Origin: Candidatus Binataceae bacterium
Lineage (GTDB): Bacteria; Desulfobacterota; Binatia; Binatales; Binataceae
Assembly (NCBI GenBank): GCA_015478645.1
Contig: JADMIL010000001.1
Span: forward strand, 1 to 64,000
DNA: 64,000 nucleotides
Direction of reading: 5' to 3'
The notes beneath the pieces are model-generated. The model did no database searches. It saw only the letters and a program-made list of their open reading frames with translations, and had not been told where the DNA came from. Below, in pieces: positions 3,504 to 59,918 of this stretch (position 1 is the first letter of the stretch; the number at the start of each line of letters is the position of its first letter). A program made the position numbers and the translations under genes.

Positions 3504-3932
3504 TCATGCCGTGCGCCTCGCACGCAGCGATCTGGGCCGCCGAGCCGGCGACGCCATGCTGTAGGGTGACGTGCGCCGGTGACGCCGCGTCGGGATCCGC
3601 TCGAGCTCGAGCGAGTCCAGGCAGCGCCGGATGGCCTCGGGTTCGAGGCCCAGCGCTTCGCACAGCGGCTCGAACGCAAACAACCCATTGGGCTGCGGCG
3701 CCCACTCCGGACGCAGCGCGAACCAGTTGCGCACTTCCAGAAAACGTACCCGCTGCAAACGCGAGCGCGCATGGCGCGTCGCGACGTAACAGCGCAGCGC
3801 GTCTTCCAAAACCGCATAGAGCAGCCGAAATTCGCCATCCATCGGAGCGTGGCGCTTGATCATTTGATAATACTGGACGGGCATCAGAACGCCGCCGAAA
3901 TCCTCGCCAGAACCATTGGCGTCATTGGACAT
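3504..3932 (-). CDS. Conserved hypothetical protein
   Basis: ORF with SD-like AGGGAGAG upstream of ATG at 3932; LLYAVLEDALRCYVATRHARS...FAFEPLCEALGLEPEAIRRCLDSL. Confidence 0.7.
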   Translation of the reverse strand: MSNDANGSGEDFGGVLMPVQYYQMIKRHAPMDGEFRLLYAVLEDALRCYVATRHARSRLQRVRFLEVRNWFALRPEWAPQPNGLFAFEPLCEALGLEPEAIRRCLDSLELERIPTRRHRRTSPYSMASPARRPRSLRARRTA

Positions 3933-4272
3933 AAAGACGAAGCTCTCCCTTGCGTTTGCATATGATGACCTGGGACGCGTCACGGCCTAAAGCACCGCTC
4001 ATGCCATCACGACAAGGTCGAATTAACCTTATTTCGTTGACGATTTTTTTAACGATGAGGCGACGGTGCCCCAGTTTGGCGGGACCGGCGTGGAGTTACG
4101 AGTATCGCGTGCGACAGGTGGGACATCCGCTCCACAGATCCACGATAAAAATCGCACGTGAATGCGAGTGAAGCTGGCAGGTGCCGGAAAATCTTACGCC
4201 GGCCGCCAATGCTGGCAGAGCACGCGGCGGCGACTCCGATGGCGGAACTGCCGGATTCGCGGAGCCGCCCGA

Positions 4273-22824: not shown

Positions 22825-24330
22825 CTAACGCGAATTACCATTGCCGCGCGGCCGGCGCGGGCGCGGGACGGCTGAGGTGGTCAGGCGCAGCAGCGCGCGC
22901 GAGCTGATACCAAGCCGATGCGCCGCCCGATCGGTATCGCCCCCGGTGGCGGCCAGCACCCGGCGCACGATCTCGCGCCGCGCAATGTCATGCGAGAGCC
23001 GCCAGAGCGAACGCACATCGCCGGGTTCGCGCGGCGGAGTGAACGCGAGCTGTTCAACGATATCGTCGCGGCCGATCACGCGGGCGCCGGAATGCAGCGG
23101 CACGATCGCCAGTCGCGTGATGAAATTGAGCAGCTCACGGACGTTGCCGGGAAAGGGATAGTCGGCCAGCGTTTTGATCGCCGCCGGGCTGATCGACAGC
23201 GCCGGGTTGACGTGCCGCAGGTAGTGCCGCGCGAGCATCGCGATGTCGACTCGCCGCAGGCGCAGCGGCGGAATCGTTAGGGTGACATCGAACAGATCAT
23301 AGAGCGCGCGCTGGAATTGTCCCCGCTCGGCCAGTTCGGCGAGCGGTTGCGTCGAGCTGGCGAGCAAGCGCACCGCGGCTGGCGACGGCGATGGCCGATG
23401 GCCGCCGCGCGACGGTCCGAGCGCCTCGAGCGCACTGATTTGCGCGGCCGGCGAGAGTTCACCGAGATGGTTGAGAAACAGCGTGCCGCCAGACCATGGC
23501 GATGCTGCGTTCGCCCGGGATGGCGGGTCGGCGAGCGAGGCCAGGTTCGCGCGCGCACCGAACGATGCGCGGGCGGAAATCTGCCGCGTGCCCTGACCGC
23601 CGGCGGCCCGCGCCTGGCTGAGCGCTTCGCGCAGGCGGGCGCCGATCGTACCTTCGTCGAGCGCCGGGCAATCGACGTTAACCAGGCTCGCCGGATCGCC
23701 GCTCGCCGCATGGATCAGCTTGATTAGCGACTCCTTGCCCGATCCGGTTTCACCTTCGACGATGATCCGCGCCGGCCCGCGCGCCACCGTAATTGCCGCG
23801 CGGATCAACTCAAACATGTTTTCATCGGCGGTCAGAAACGGGGCGTAGAGTTTCAGCGCACGGGAGAGAATAAAGCAGGCCGCCGGATGGGCGCTGTCGG
23901 CGACCAGATCGGCCGCGTAATTGAGCGTCCGGGCGCGCGGTCCAAAGGCGATCCGGATGGCCGAAATATCGCCCATCCGGCGCGCGGCGACCGTGCCGAA
24001 TTCCACGCACAGATCCGGCGTGGCATAAGGCGCCGCGGGCGCACCGCACTCTTCGTCATCGGCGATCGGCACTTGCGGCTCCACGGACGCGGCCTGCGCC
24101 GCTTGCGCCGGCTTCGGCGAATTGTCCGACGATTGGGGCCGCGCGATACCGAGTTGGGGCAACAGCCGGATCAATTCGGCTGGCGCCGATCGACCCAATC
24201 GCACACGTGCCAAGGGTTCCAACGACTCATCACCTCGATTTATTTCAGCTATACGCTGGCGGCGGGCACGAACTTTTCCGCGGGCATCGTCAAAATGCCG
24301 GGCGTCATGATCAGATCTGTCAGCCAGCAT
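22825..24330 (-). CDS. Degenerate sigma54-type AAA+ regulator (no GAFTGA, altered Walker B and R-fingers); start uncertain
   Basis: GETGSGKESLIKLIH; GGTLFLNHLGELSPAAQ; FPGNVRELLNFITRLAI; C-terminal Fis-like HTH. Confidence 0.8.
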   Translation of the reverse strand: MLADRSDHDARHFDDARGKVRARRQRIAEINRGDESLEPLARVRLGRSAPAELIRLLPQLGIARPQSSDNSPKPAQAAQAASVEPQVPIADDEECGAPAAPYATPDLCVEFGTVAARRMGDISAIRIAFGPRARTLNYAADLVADSAHPAACFILSRALKLYAPFLTADENMFELIRAAITVARGPARIIVEGETGSGKESLIKLIHAASGDPASLVNVDCPALDEGTIGARLREALSQARAAGGQGTRQISARASFGARANLASLADPPSRANAASPWSGGTLFLNHLGELSPAAQISALEALGPSRGGHRPSPSPAAVRLLASSTQPLAELAERGQFQRALYDLFDVTLTIPPLRLRRVDIAMLARHYLRHVNPALSISPAAIKTLADYPFPGNVRELLNFITRLAIVPLHSGARVIGRDDIVEQLAFTPPREPGDVRSLWRLSHDIARREIVRRVLAATGGDTDRAAHRLGISSRALLRLTTSAVPRPRRPRGNGNSR

Positions 24331-24420
24331 GATTTTTCAGACGTCATGATTTTTCAGACTGTTTCCGATCTGTCAGGCATCATTTACAATCTGTCAGGTA
24401 CAATCTGTCAGGCATCATGC
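24304..24420. repeat. Cluster of short direct repeats (CATGATTTTTCAGAC x2; ATCTGTCAG x4)
   Basis: CATGATTTTTCAGAC at 24328 and 24345; ATCTGTCAGGCATCAT at 24368 and 24403; ATCTGTCAG also at 24315 and 24389. Confidence 0.85.
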
Positions 24421-24863
24421 TCGATGCGTACCGCACCCACCGCAGAGACAGCTTTGCAAGGGCGATACCATCGATCGGGGCAATGTCGCGATCGAAGCGG
24501 CAGTTCGATCCGGCATCCGGCCGCTCGCGCGGATGGAACGAATTTGCGACATGGCCCGGCGCGGTTGCGACGTGCGAAGACCGCCACATGCTTCATTCGG
24601 GAACATCGGGAGAACGCGGCGAGCCCGCGCTAGCGCCGTCGCGCCCGACGATTTTCGGTGCGGCGGCGGCGCTGACCATGCGCACTCGATCGATCGCGCC
24701 CCGCGTCAATCTTCTAATTCGCCGGTTGACGCGCTTATGTCCGCATCGCGCGTCCTCGACGAGCATCGTCGGCCGCGGCCGGAATTTCCGCCGCCCACGG
24801 AATTATGATCGACGAGACCGTCGTCGTGGTGTCGCACCGCGCGACATCGTCGGCAGGTGGACC

Positions 24864-25142
24864 ATGGGCGAGCGCGAACTCGGCCAACCGAACTATCGCA
24901 TAGTCATCGAAAAGGACGTCGCGATACGCACGCATGACGGCGTGACGCTGCGTAGTGACGTTTATCGGCCAGATACGAGCGGCAAATTTCCGGTACTGGT
25001 GGTGCGGCGCTCCCCGGAGAAAAAATGGCATCCTTACCCGAAAACTAAAATCGTTTATAATAGTCTGCCAATCAGGTCAGCACCGAGCGTCCGCGAGTCC
25101 GGCCCACGCGCCGATATCGAACGCGACGGGACCTGCGTATGA
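24864..25142 (+). pseudogene. Remnant of the N-terminus of a CocE/NonD (S15) hydrolase
   Basis: YRIVIEKDVAIRTHDGVTLRSDVYRPDTSGKFPVLVVRRSPEKK is the canonical start of this family; homology then stops and the catalytic domain is absent. Confidence 0.6.
25034..25061 (+). promoter_or_regulatory. Possible sigma70-type promoter for the RND operon
   Basis: perfect TATAAT at 25056-25061; weak -35 TTACCC 16 bp upstream. Confidence 0.35.
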
Positions 25143-26368
25143 GCTATTGCGAGGAGAGCTGTTTGCCGCCTGAATCAGATTCCGCATTCGCCGAACGCGC
25201 GAACGCGCCGGCGCGCGCGCGTGCGCCAATCCCGCATGTGCTAATCAAAGGCGCATGGATCGGCGCGTTATCGATCGCGCTCGGGCTCTGCGCCGGATGC
25301 ACGGACAAGGGCGCGGCGAACCTCGCGATGCGCCCGCCGGTGCCGGTCCTGGTGGCCAAGGCGGTGAGGCGTGACGTGCCTAATCAACTGCATGAAATCG
25401 GCTCGGTCGAAGCCTTCGCCGCGGTCGCGATCAAGGCGCGGGTCGAGGGCAACCTCGATCGAATCGAATTCAAAGAGGGCGATTACGTGCATCAAGGCCA
25501 GACGCTCGCAGTGCTCGACCAGCGGCCGTTCGCCGCGGCGCTGGCGCTGGCGCAAGCCAACGTGGTCCACGACCAGGCCAACGCCGACCGGGCGCGCACC
25601 GACGAACAGCGCAATTCCTATCTGCTGCGCGAGGGCGTCGGCTCGCGCCAGCAATACGACCAGTCTTACGCCGACGCGCGGAGCCTGAGCGCGACCGTGG
25701 CCGCCGATCGCGCGGCGGTGGAGACCGCGCGGCTCAACTTGCAATACACCGTGATCAAGGCGCCGATCGACGGGCGCACCGGCAACCTTGGCGCGCATTT
25801 GGGCGACCTGATCAAGGCCGACGCCGACACCGCGATCGTCACCATCAATCAGATCGAGCCGATCTACGTGGCCTTCTCGATCCCGGAAAACCAGCTCGCC
25901 GAGGTCCGCCGCAATATGGCATTGCGCCAGCTTGAGGTCGACGCGACGATTCCCGGCGATCCGGGTCCGGCCGAGCATGGCGTGCTCGCCTTTATCGACA
26001 ACGGGGTCGACAAAACCACCGGAACGATCGAGCTCAAGGGTCTCTTCCAGAACGAGAACCGCCGCCTGTGGCCGGGCCAGTTCGTCAACGCGACGCTGAC
26101 CCTGAACGAAACTCCGAACGCCGTGCTGATACCCTCCGAGGCGATCCAGAATGGTCAGCAAGGGACGTTCGTCTACGTCGTCGGCGCCGATCTCAAGGTC
26201 GCCAGCCGGCCGATCGTGACGGGCGCGGTCTTCGCCGGTGAGACGCTGATCGCAAAGGGCCTCGCGGCGGGCGAGACCGTGGTCATCGACGGCCAGTTGC
26301 TGCTCACTCCCGGAGCGACCGTGCGGATCAAGGATGCGCTCGGCGGCGGTGCGGGCCACGCCACATGA
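25139..26368 (+). CDS. RND efflux periplasmic adaptor (membrane fusion) lipoprotein
   Basis: lipobox LGLCAGC; VEAFAAVAIKARVEGNLDRIEFKEGDYVHQGQTLAVLD; PIDGRTGN. Confidence 0.95.
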   Translation: MSYCEESCLPPESDSAFAERANAPARARAPIPHVLIKGAWIGALSIALGLCAGCTDKGAANLAMRPPVPVLVAKAVRRDVPNQLHEIGSVEAFAAVAIKARVEGNLDRIEFKEGDYVHQGQTLAVLDQRPFAAALALAQANVVHDQANADRARTDEQRNSYLLREGVGSRQQYDQSYADARSLSATVAADRAAVETARLNLQYTVIKAPIDGRTGNLGAHLGDLIKADADTAIVTINQIEPIYVAFSIPENQLAEVRRNMALRQLEVDATIPGDPGPAEHGVLAFIDNGVDKTTGTIELKGLFQNENRRLWPGQFVNATLTLNETPNAVLIPSEAIQNGQQGTFVYVVGADLKVASRPIVTGAVFAGETLIAKGLAAGETVVIDGQLLLTPGATVRIKDALGGGAGHAT

Positions 26369-29300
26369 ATATCGCGGAAATCTTTATCCGCCGGCCGGTG
26401 ATGACGACGCTGATCTCGATGGCGATCGTGATCTTCGGCCTTGCCGCCTACCGCACGCTGCCGGTCAGCGATCTGCCCAGCGTCGATTATCCGACGATCC
26501 TGGTTTCGGCGAGTCTGCCCGGCGCCAATCCGGAGACCATGGCTTCGTCCGTGGCGACGCCGCTCGAGCGCGAGTTCTCGTCGATCGCGGGCCTGGATCA
26601 GATGACCTCGGCGAACACCCAGGGCAACACCAGCATCACGCTGCAGTTCGACCTCTCGCGCAATATCGACGCCGCCGCCCAGGACGTGCAATCCAAGATT
26701 GCCGCCGCGCAGTCGCAATTGCCGCATGAGATGCCCTCGCCACCTTCGTATGAGAAGGTCAATCCGGCCGATCAGGCGATCCTCTACCTGGGCATGAGTT
26801 CGGCCACGCTGCCGCTGTCCGAGGTCGACGAGTACGCCGAGACCAACCTCGGCGAGCGCATCTCGATGATCGGCGGCGTGGCCCAGGTGCAGGTCTACGG
26901 GTCGCAGAAGTACGCGGTGCGCGTGCAGGTCGATCCGCAGGCGCTCGTCGCGCACGGCGTCGGCATCAATGAGGTCGCCGACGCGATTGCCAGCGCCAAC
27001 GTCGATCTGCCGACCGGCACGCTCTACGGCAGCAATCAGGCTTTCACGCTCAAGGCCAACGGCCAGTTGCGCGACGCCGCCGCCTATCGCCCGCTGGTGG
27101 TCGCCTACCGCAACGGCGCGCCGGTGCGCCTGAGCGATCTCGGCCGGGTGATCGACAGCGTGCAGGACGACAAGGTCGCCGGCTGGGTGCGCGGCGACCG
27201 CGCGGTGGTCCTCGCGATCGAGCGCCAGCCGGGCACCAACACGGTCGAAGTCGTCGATAACATCAAGCGCCTGTTGCCGATGTTTCGCGGGGAACTGCCC
27301 GCGGCGATCGATCTGACGATTCTCTACGACCGCTCGGTCAGCATCCGCCAGTCGGTCAACAGCGTGCAGTCGACGCTGCTGCTGACGATCGCCCTGGTCG
27401 TGATGGTGATCTTTCTTTTCCTGCGCAACCTCTCAGCCACCATCATCCCGAGCCTCGCGCTGCCGATGTCGATCATCGGCACCTTCGGCGTGATGGCGCT
27501 GCTCGGCTACAGCCTCGACAATCTCTCGCTGCTGGCGATTACGCTCTCGGTCGGCTTCGTCGTCGACGACGCCATCGTGATGCTCGAGAACGTCGTGCGC
27601 CATATGGAGATGGGCAAGGGCGTGATGGAAGCGGCGCTCGACGGCTCGCGCGAAATCGCCTTCACGATCCTCTCGATGACCATCTCGCTGGCCGCCGTCT
27701 TCATCCCGGTGCTCTTCATGGGCGGCATCCTCGGGCGCCTGCTGCACGAATTCGCGGTGACCATCGGCGTCGCGATCCTGGTCTCGGGCTTCGTCTCGCT
27801 GACGCTCACCCCGATGCTCTGCAGCCGCTTCATTCGCGCCCCCTCGAGCGAGCGCCACGGGCGGTTCTACCAGGTGACCGAGCGCGGCTTCGACAAGCTG
27901 ATCGCCGGCTACGCGCAAAGCCTGGGCTGGGTGATGCGTCATCGGCGGGCCACGATGGTCACGCTGGGGCTGCTGGTCGCGGGCACCGCATGGGGCTTCC
28001 GCACGGTGCCGCGCGGCTTTCTGCCGCTCGCCGACAACAGCCAGATCCTGATGTTCACGCAGGCCGCGCAGGGCATTTCGTACGACTCGATGATCGCGCA
28101 TCAGCTCGTGCTCAACCAGCTAGTCGCCACCGATCCGGTGGTGCAGACGTTCTTTTCGAGCGTCGGCGCGTCGGGGCCGAGCGGCACGCTCAACTCGAGC
28201 ATCCTGTTCGTCCACCTGGTCGATCGATCGAAGCGGCGCGAGAGCGTCGATCAGATCATCAATCGATGGCGCGTCAAGCTCGGATCGATTCCGGGCCTGA
28301 TGGTCTTCATCCAGAATCCGCCGCCGATCCAGATCGGCGCGCACTTCACCAAGAGCACCTACCAGTTGACGCTCCAGGGCCCCAATACCGACGAGCTCTA
28401 CAAATACGCCACGCTGCTCAAGCAGCGGATGGCCGCGATGCCCGAGTTGCGCGGCGTCAACAGCGATCTCCAGATCGCCAATCCGCAGGTCAACGTCGAC
28501 ATCGATCGCGACAAGGCGCATACCCTGGGCCTCACCGCACAGTCGATCGAGACCGCGCTGGGCTACGCTTACGGTTCCGAGCAGGTCTCGACGATCTACG
28601 CGCCCACCGACGAGTTCTGGGTTGAGCTCGAACTCGAGCCGCAATACCAGGCCGACCCGGCGGCGCTCAACCTGCTCTACGTCCGTTCGGCGACCGGCCA
28701 ACTGGTCCCGCTCAATACCGTCGCCAAACTCACGCGCACGCTCGGCCCGCTGGCGATCAACCATTCCGGCCAGCTCCCCTCGGTGACCATCTCGTTCGAC
28801 GCCGCGCCGGGCGTCTCGCTCGGCAAGGCCCTGGGCAACGTCCGCCGGGTCGCCGAAGATACCCTGCCGGCCGCGATCAGCGCGCAATACTCGGGCGCGG
28901 CGCAGGCCTTCGAGAGCTCGATCGGGAATCTCGGGATGCTGCTGGCGGCGGCCATCCTGGTCATCTACCTGGTCCTCGGCATCCTCTACGAAAGCTTCAT
29001 TCATCCGATCACGATCCTGTCCGGACTGCCGGCGGCCGGCTTCGGCGCGCTCATCACCCTGATGGCCTTCGGTCTGGAACTCGACCTGCTCGCCTTTGTC
29101 GGCATCATCATGCTGGTCGGACTGGTCAAGAAGAACGCCATCATGATGATCGACTTCGCACTCGGCGCGCAGCGCGGCGAGGGCAAAAGCGCGGCCGACG
29201 CGATCGTCGAGGGCTGCCTGGTGCGCTTTCGGCCAATCATGATGACGACCATGGCGGCCTTTATGGGCACGCTGCCGATTGCGATCGGCACCGGCGCCGG

Positions 29301-29532
29301 TGCCGACGCGCGCCGCTCGCTCGGCGTCGCCGTGGTCGGCGGCCTGGTCTTCTCGCAATTGCTCACGCTCTACATCACGCCCGTGGTCTACACGTACATG
29401 GACGGCCTGCAGGAACGCGTAAAGACGTGGACCGGCTCCCGCCGGGGCGACGGCGGCGCCGCCGCAATTGCGACCACCGCCGCGATCGCCGATCGCCGCG
29501 CCGAGGATCGGCGCCGCCGCGCCGCTTCGTAG
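26365..29532 (+). CDS. RND efflux transporter permease (HAE1/MdtB-like)
   Basis: FIRRPVMTTLISMAIVIFG, SVGFVVDDAIVMLENVVRHME, GLVKKNAIMMIDFAL; ATGA overlap with adaptor gene. Confidence 0.97.
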   Translation: MNIAEIFIRRPVMTTLISMAIVIFGLAAYRTLPVSDLPSVDYPTILVSASLPGANPETMASSVATPLEREFSSIAGLDQMTSANTQGNTSITLQFDLSRNIDAAAQDVQSKIAAAQSQLPHEMPSPPSYEKVNPADQAILYLGMSSATLPLSEVDEYAETNLGERISMIGGVAQVQVYGSQKYAVRVQVDPQALVAHGVGINEVADAIASANVDLPTGTLYGSNQAFTLKANGQLRDAAAYRPLVVAYRNGAPVRLSDLGRVIDSVQDDKVAGWVRGDRAVVLAIERQPGTNTVEVVDNIKRLLPMFRGELPAAIDLTILYDRSVSIRQSVNSVQSTLLLTIALVVMVIFLFLRNLSATIIPSLALPMSIIGTFGVMALLGYSLDNLSLLAITLSVGFVVDDAIVMLENVVRHMEMGKGVMEAALDGSREIAFTILSMTISLAAVFIPVLFMGGILGRLLHEFAVTIGVAILVSGFVSLTLTPMLCSRFIRAPSSERHGRFYQVTERGFDKLIAGYAQSLGWVMRHRRATMVTLGLLVAGTAWGFRTVPRGFLPLADNSQILMFTQAAQGISYDSMIAHQLVLNQLVATDPVVQTFFSSVGASGPSGTLNSSILFVHLVDRSKRRESVDQIINRWRVKLGSIPGLMVFIQNPPPIQIGAHFTKSTYQLTLQGPNTDELYKYATLLKQRMAAMPELRGVNSDLQIANPQVNVDIDRDKAHTLGLTAQSIETALGYAYGSEQVSTIYAPTDEFWVELELEPQYQADPAALNLLYVRSATGQLVPLNTVAKLTRTLGPLAINHSGQLPSVTISFDAAPGVSLGKALGNVRRVAEDTLPAAISAQYSGAAQAFESSIGNLGMLLAAAILVIYLVLGILYESFIHPITILSGLPAAGFGALITLMAFGLELDLLAFVGIIMLVGLVKKNAIMMIDFALGAQRGEGKSAADAIVEGCLVRFRPIMMTTMAAFMGTLPIAIGTGAGADARRSLGVAVVGGLVFSQLLTLYITPVVYTYMDGLQERVKTWTGSRRGDGGAAAIATTAAIADRRAEDRRRRAAS

Positions 29533-59278: not shown

Positions 59279-59308
59279 TTGACGAGTGTACGGCATTGCC
59301 GTACACTC
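59279..59308 (+). promoter_or_regulatory. higBA promoter/operator: -35 TTGACG, 17-bp spacer, -10 TACACT, overlapped by a perfect 25-bp palindrome
   Basis: gagtgtacggca-t-tgccgtacactc at 59284-59308. Confidence 0.8.
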
Positions 59309-59313
59309 CACCA

Positions 59314-59598
59314 ATGATAATTCGGAGCGTCCAACATCGGGGGCTTTTGCGCCTGATCGAAGATGACGACAGCCGCGAATTGCGCCCCGATCTCGTAAGG
59401 CGGCTGCGTAATATTCTCGCGGCGCTCATCGTGGCTCCCGATATGGGCGCGGTTACTGGTCCGCCCGGCTGGAAGGTGCATCAGCTAAAAGGCAACCGGG
59501 CCGGGACATGGAGCATTTCAGTAAGCGGAAATTGGCGCATCACATTCGACCTGAATAAGGGAGAAATCGGCAATCTGAACTTGGAGGATTACCACTGA
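59314..59598 (+). CDS. higB: HigB-like type II toxin (RelE/ParE superfamily)
   Basis: LRRLRNILAALIVAPDMGAVTGPPGWKVHQLKGNRAGTWSISVSGNWRITFDLNKGEIGNLNLEDYH. Confidence 0.93.
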   Translation: MIIRSVQHRGLLRLIEDDDSRELRPDLVRRLRNILAALIVAPDMGAVTGPPGWKVHQLKGNRAGTWSISVSGNWRITFDLNKGEIGNLNLEDYH

Positions 59599-59918
59599 TG
59601 AGCACGACACCAAACAAAATCGGGATGACGCCGCCGCATCCCGGAGCATTTATCCGCGATGAGGTTTTGTCCGAGCTAAAGCTGAGCGTCAGCCAGGCGG
59701 CGGTAATTCTCGGCGTACGGCGCGCGACGTTATCCGACCTCGTGAACGGCAAAGCCGCGCTGTCACCTGAAATGGCGCTGCGCGTTGAAAAGGCTTTCGG
59801 CATCAATCTGGATACGCTCTTGCGTATGCAAGCGTGGTACGACGCCCAGGCGATGCGCCGCCGCGCCGATAAAATCGAGGTGCGCAGGTATAAGCCGCCC
59901 ATCGAATCACCGCACTAG
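59598..59918 (+). CDS. higA: HigA-like antitoxin (XRE family)
   Basis: PPHPGAFIRDEVLSELKLSVSQAAVILGVRRATLSDLVNGKAALSPEMALRVEKAFG. Confidence 0.95.
   Translation: MSTTPNKIGMTPPHPGAFIRDEVLSELKLSVSQAAVILGVRRATLSDLVNGKAALSPEMALRVEKAFGINLDTLLRMQAWYDAQAMRRRADKIEVRRYKPPIESPH

Follow-up and report, generated by a model that had tools for sequence, protein, structure and literature searches.

The question raised by this locus is what a sigma54-type AAA+ regulator (bEBP) does once it is no longer fit to work sigma54. The window, meaning the whole stretch of 64,000 nucleotides analyzed here, comes from a Candidatus Binataceae bacterium (GCA_015478645.1, contig JADMIL010000001.1, positions 1 to 64,000), and an earlier note made from the sequence alone had described a degenerate bEBP, or pseudo-bEBP, in the frame 22825-24330. 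This frame is a genuine ORF on the minus strand, with 501 aa at its longest reading from the ATG at 24330 to the stop at 22825, but the start given in the note probably has to be shifted. The proteins of the relatives begin at the residue aligned with Leu37 of the window protein, a GAGGTGA lies a few bases upstream of the TTG at 24222, and the G001 relative has a GTG at the equivalent position. With the relatives starting at this residue, the degenerate bEBP gene (22825..24222, minus strand) probably begins at TTG 24222 and encodes a protein of about 465 aa; the frame is open up to ATG 24330, and its first 36 residues would not be translated.

We aligned the window protein with five canonical bEBPs encoded in its own genome and compared their motifs. 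The degenerate character of the protein was confirmed, and the strings that had been quoted for it (GETGSGKE, CPALDEGTIGARLREALSQARA, GGTLFLNHLGEL and FQRALYDLF) were all found in the sequence. In the translation and motif table, Walker A is kept as GETGSGKE (approximately 23728..23751 by the ORF numbering, minus strand as for all segments of this gene), and the GNVREL of sensor II is intact. GAFTGA, present in the canonical bEBPs of the same genome, is absent; the region in place of this loop (approximately 23495..23671) is unconserved with low pLDDT, and 66 residues separate the conserved Cys from Walker B versus 42 in canonical bEBPs. The degenerate Walker B, GGTLFLNHLGEL (approximately 23461..23496), has NH in place of the acidic DE, sensor I has changed from TN to ST, and the arginine-finger segment FRxDLxxRL reads FQRALYDLF (approximately 23294..23320), with both arginines gone. 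One statement of the earlier note went too far. The Fis-type HTH, given there as retained, is a weak remnant (approximately 22885..22985) that reaches 18.9-19.1 bits for HTH_8 against a cut-off of 22, and it is deleted in several relatives. The note also proposed to check the conservation of NH, and the pair is not conserved: genus-mates have NR, HR or DQ instead. Among the Pfam models, Sigma54_activat matched as two short pieces only (32 and 24 bits, versus 205-242 bits in eight bEBPs of the same genome); these fragments and AAA_lid_14 were over the cut-off and HTH_8 under it, and HTH_8 was not found in the genus-mates G002 and G006.

In the AlphaFold2 model of the window protein, the AAA+ core resembles that of bEBPs, with a pLDDT of around 90 in most blocks. 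Three helices are predicted at the C-terminus, and confidence is weak in the former L1 region and in an insert of the N-terminal domain. The closest solved folds in the PDB (ZraR, NtrX, NtrC1, FlrC, FleQ and VpsR) are all bEBPs. Pfam homology, these predicted-fold neighbours and the tree described below indicate that the protein is a descendant of the bEBP AAA+ superfamily. The N-terminal domain (23821..24216, minus strand) is specific to the family, with the low-confidence insert in the window copy, and was used as the marker for family scans. For a flagellar member of the family, AlphaFold2 gave this domain a small alpha/beta fold (pLDDT 84.5) that looks by eye like a shrunken receiver; a Foldseek search with it returned nothing significant, with a best E of 0.02 and receivers and BRCT domains mixed.

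In a search of 57 relatives, the best matches to the window protein were 42-54% identical and came from the same genus and beyond. Among genomes of which many are drafts, the N-domain model found the family in 16/41 genomes and 6/17 genera of the taxonomic family, and a scan of 148 class genomes located no member in any other taxonomic family; a degenerate bEBP gene was present in 7/7 genomes examined of the window's genus. A maximum-likelihood tree grouped 18 members in one clade (100/100), apart from 34 canonical bEBPs. Within it, one branch holds the 14 non-flagellar copies (95/87) and the other the four flagellar copies (98/93); a tree built after removal of the longest branch agreed, with 98/86 and 98/93. 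Direct descent from the canonical flagellar bEBP of the class (L170) was not supported, L170 not being sister to the clade. A 98-aa frame in G001 was considered as a possible decayed copy; this reading was rejected, since the contig ends within the gene, whose own promoter is present. Outside the clade, seven otherwise canonical, high-scoring bEBPs (L008, L023, L024, L027, L028, L034 and L035) carry G[AS]FTDA instead of GAFTGA, and five of them form one clade in the tree.

The loss of sigma54 remodelling that had been proposed for the window protein is, from these alignments, very likely and also old: GAFTGA is absent in 18/18 clade members, and the ancestor of the clade was most likely already without this loop. 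The catalytic residues, arginine fingers and HTH are, on the sequences compared, lost stepwise across the clade. The Walker A lysine is kept in 17/18 members and the sensor II arginine in 13/18, the window protein being among both. The Walker A lysine, DE, the TN of sensor I and the two arginine fingers all survive in the flagellar copies of G016 and G026, and the L1 region is reduced to 17-34 residues in 3/4 flagellar copies, with no common sequence. The g13 copies keep the fingers and have lost the second Walker B acid; the window's genus has lost the fingers as well; and in the non-flagellar copy of G012 (C1) even the Walker A lysine is gone. The HTH is recognisable in flagellar, g11 and g13 members, and good in the flagellar and g13 ones, and it is erased in G002, in G011 and, for G026 and G012, in the non-flagellar copy. 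A frameshift was rejected as the cause of these HTH losses, as nothing was there when the other frames were read.

Three features had escaped the earlier note: a sigma54-type promoter at every testable copy, the flagellar branch of the clade, and a divergent RND pump as neighbour. The sigma54 -24/-12 consensus is TGGCAC-N5-TTGC. In the window, a putative promoter of this type, TGGTATCGCCCTTGCAA (24454..24470, minus strand), is directed at the degenerate bEBP gene, 248 nt upstream of its start. When upstream regions were scored against the general consensus, such a site was the best match for 13/13 non-flagellar copies with upstream sequence (scores 18.8-21.0), a range reached by 4/139 control genes and equalled in 0-10 of 300 dinucleotide shuffles; G001 adds a further site, making 14/14 testable non-flagellar copies. 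A strict pattern, written after the sites had first been seen by eye and after this first scored scan, occurred within 300 nt upstream of 10/373 genes, all 10 of them clade members, and of 0/363 other genes, with a chance of about 0.2% per gene from own-genome counts (Fisher p ~1e-19, a value that overstates independence, the copies being related). When upstream regions of different species are compared, the element is also the only long block that they have in common, the rest being unalignable (26% and 13% identical columns). As for the flagellar genomes, a site precedes fliM in 4/4, at 28-36 nt from the fliM start (18.3-20.8), and fliM heads a fliM-fliN-pseudo-bEBP-motA arrangement; few control genes scanned within 60 nt reached such scores, and no sigma54-type site was found at the fliM of flagellated G021, a genome without the degenerate bEBP gene. 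RpoN is encoded in 57/57 genomes searched, the window's genus included. By its promoter motif, a bEBP uncoupled from sigma54 thus appears to be made by sigma54. The sequence before the promoter was also searched for a palindromic enhancer, and none is common to the relatives. Elsewhere in the window, another sigma54-type site, TGGCATGAGCGGTGCTT (score 19.8), lies 23 nt upstream of an ORF at 3507-3983 (minus strand), near a canonical bEBP gene at 172-1590.

The two branches of the clade differ in their surroundings, where the flagellar and pump genes were named from reading translations. In G012, G016, G019 and G026 the gene lies inside a flagellar cluster, after fliM and, where read, fliN, and adjoins motA/motB where the contig reaches; G012, G016 and G026 carry both flagellar and non-flagellar copies. 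An RND efflux operon in the opposite direction is found near the gene in 11/11 non-flagellar loci whose contigs reach that far, either directly across the gap or separated from the gene by one to a few others. In the window, this conserved neighbour runs from 25139 to 29529 on the plus strand, with the membrane-fusion protein at 25139-26365 and the permease at 26365-29529. The promoter scans found no sigma54 site for this operon, and its control by sigma54 was rejected. Between pump and bEBP gene, a hydrolase gene remnant (24417-25139; CocE/NonD-like by reading) was noticed, with intact relatives of 585-594 aa in this place in G018, G029, G030 and G092. On the same strand as the degenerate bEBP gene, oxidoreductase and dehydrogenase genes follow it. 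In G011 (L051, 3-2246), a stopless bEBP frame continues into the downstream LLM-type oxidoreductase frame, giving an open frame of 748 aa that may be a real fusion or an assembly error. Further along the window, two small adjacent genes (59296-59915, plus strand) read like a HigBA-type toxin-antitoxin pair.

Our best model, which we put forward tentatively by sequence and by analogy, is that the protein is a non-motor subunit that joins a canonical bEBP and acts back on sigma54 activity, in a FleT-like manner. The sequence establishes the anatomy, family, selection and promoter motif; sigma54 use of the promoter, nucleotide binding, the loss of ATPase activity, a partner and the direction of the effect are what the model infers, as follows. 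One branch of the clade would have stayed in flagellar operons, while the window branch came to sit by an RND pump and further lost the ATPase catalytic residues, the arginine fingers and much of the HTH. With a sigma54-type promoter before the gene, the protein would most likely appear once one of the cell's canonical bEBPs is active and sigma54 transcribes the degenerate bEBP gene. It would then fold as a bEBP AAA+ protomer, use Walker A and sensor II to bind nucleotide that it does not hydrolyse, join the canonical bEBP as a non-motor subunit, and adjust or damp the very sigma54 activity that made it. A protein presumably unfit to work sigma54 is yet, by motif, in the sigma54 regulon in both branches, and feedback or partnership is the simplest functional reading of this. 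Furthermore, since the HTH was erased without frameshift in four relatives, a protein partner suits the data better than a DNA target. As precedents, the Walker B change E108Q in PspF keeps ATP binding and hexamers and impairs hydrolysis (PMC4132715), and paralogous VnfA proteins form hetero-oligomers (PMC9542535). Against the partner model count the rarity of mixed hexamers in reports on bEBPs (PMC9542535), the good HTH of flagellar and g13 members, the missing Walker A lysine of G012 C1, and the conserved divergent pump, which suggests a local DNA-binding regulator instead.

The latter is the main rival, and a genuine possibility although we hold it doubtful. On this reading the protein would bind DNA and regulate the RND pump or its own promoter in the sigma70 manner, independently of sigma54, and non-hydrolysed nucleotide would set its oligomeric state; TyrR, DhaR, HupR and the NtrC proteins of R. 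capsulatus and Caulobacter are precedents (PMC3162934, PMC10274813). It draws its support from the divergent RND operon and from the recognisable HTH of the flagellar, g11 and g13 members, and is weakened by the sub-threshold HTH of the window protein and its erasure in at least four non-flagellar relatives. The stretch from the sigma54-type site to the gene start contains, at 24314-24418, an imperfect direct repeat of about 17 nt (GATCTGTCAGGCATCAT) in five copies, which may represent an operator cluster, a leader element or a local duplication. Such repeats next to the gene would suit a DNA-binding regulator, but they are confined to the window genome and lie downstream of the putative promoter: strong copies occur nowhere else in this genome and are absent at the same place in genus-mates, so that they are not a shared operator. 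No other shared operator was found among the upstream regions, and the conserved footprint there is the sigma54-type site. Any of the roles suggested in the earlier note, as a repressor, a sigma70 regulator or a subunit of a mixed hexamer, may still apply to the protein, and this promoter and the repeated loss of the HTH favour a mixed oligomer or feedback over a plain sigma70 regulator.

The pattern of selection bears on both the partner model and a further, clearly unlikely alternative, in which the gene is a relic: its role would have gone with the flagellum, the protein would be eroding, and the promoter alone would be maintained, for the downstream oxidoreductase genes. By simple pairwise Nei-Gojobori estimates, in which wider pairs are near saturation at silent sites, dN/dS within the genus is 0.35-0.52, versus 0.05-0.25 in most close-pair comparisons of neighbour genes. 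This speed fits a relic, as do the stepwise motif losses, the former L1 region, which with the linkers is least constrained in the wider comparisons, the absence of fliG in 7/7 genomes of the genus, and the same-strand genes that follow. It also tells against the partner model, as part of the protein may be drifting with a dN/dS of about 0.5 across the genus. However, dN/dS is below 1 in every region (0.29-0.46 among the three closest genomes), the frame is open across the genus at about 48% identity with the gene kept in all seven genomes, and the conserved parts are Walker A, the lid and the surroundings of GNVREL. On these sequence comparisons, the window protein is under constraint yet fast-evolving, and decay after flagellar loss is possible in part. 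A recent pseudogene, which intact orthologues would have indicated, is ruled out: no clade relative has GAFTGA, the frames are open, and dN/dS is about 0.25-0.5.

That the protein is itself a sigma54 activator through a non-GAFTGA loop, alone or with a partner, with the flagellar copies that have a complete ATPase site as the working form, we regard as very improbable. In its favour, all testable copies go with a sigma54-type site, which is often the case with local activators, the G016 and G026 flagellar copies keep their catalytic residues and fingers, and the flagellar-cluster stretches examined of G019, G012 and G026 showed no canonical bEBP, apart from one of two-component type in a G026 stretch that does not adjoin flagellar genes. 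Against it, GAFTGA, described as required for sigma54 contact (PMC7057263, PMC3162934), is missing, and the L1 region is short in three of the four flagellar copies, without shared sequence and least constrained.

Extending the partner model to the history of the clade, a bEBP lineage would have given up the sigma54 motor role and become a source of sigma54-made feedback subunits, in the flagellar operon for one branch and at the pump locus for the other; we consider this broader proposal rather unlikely. GAFTGA-less bEBPs have been known one by one, and in this case the sequence of losses can be read from an entire clade with surviving intermediates: the sigma54 contact first, the ATPase residues next and DNA binding last. 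The clade makes it testable which role a non-hydrolysing bEBP plays during the activity of the cell's other bEBPs, and also whether rings of mixed bEBPs occur more often than the few known cases suggest. It is also a warning, in that annotation pipelines would call the window protein a sigma54 activator.

Several known systems resemble parts of this picture. FlbD, FlrA and FleQ share the bEBP AAA+ fold and, with the sister branch, the location in a flagellar cluster; they are canonical activators, and L170, the flagellar bEBP of a class relative, stands apart from the clade. In TyrR, DhaR, HupR, VpsR and YplP, GAFTGA is likewise lost or altered and sigma54 contact is not expected (PMC3162934), but these are separate families, for which we found no description of a sigma54-type promoter before every member. 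The NtrC proteins of Caulobacter and Rhodobacter capsulatus, which act at sigma70 promoters, are alike in the deletion of L1/GAFTGA and the retention of Walker A (PMC10274813). They differ in having a working phosphoreceiver, and Caulobacter NtrC needs its Walker A and B residues, whereas the window protein has also lost Walker B and the arginine fingers and its N-domain contains no recognisable receiver. In Rhodobacter sphaeroides, an operon that carries fleT together with flagellar genes is driven by FleQ and sigma54, and the FleT made from it works jointly with FleQ (PMC7277832). The published description makes FleT a second activator protein for sigma54, whereas every member of the present clade lacks GAFTGA and most lack the ATPase site; the window copy sits beside a pump, not flagellar genes, with a partnership that we infer. 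In common with the clade, FleT is a bEBP paralogue. Its gene belongs to a flagellar operon driven by sigma54, and the protein partners another bEBP (PMC7277832); for the clade, the likeness in promoter holds at the level of the motif, through the sigma54-type site at 14/14 non-flagellar copies that could be examined and at four fliM operons, and the likeness in partnership is a proposed one.
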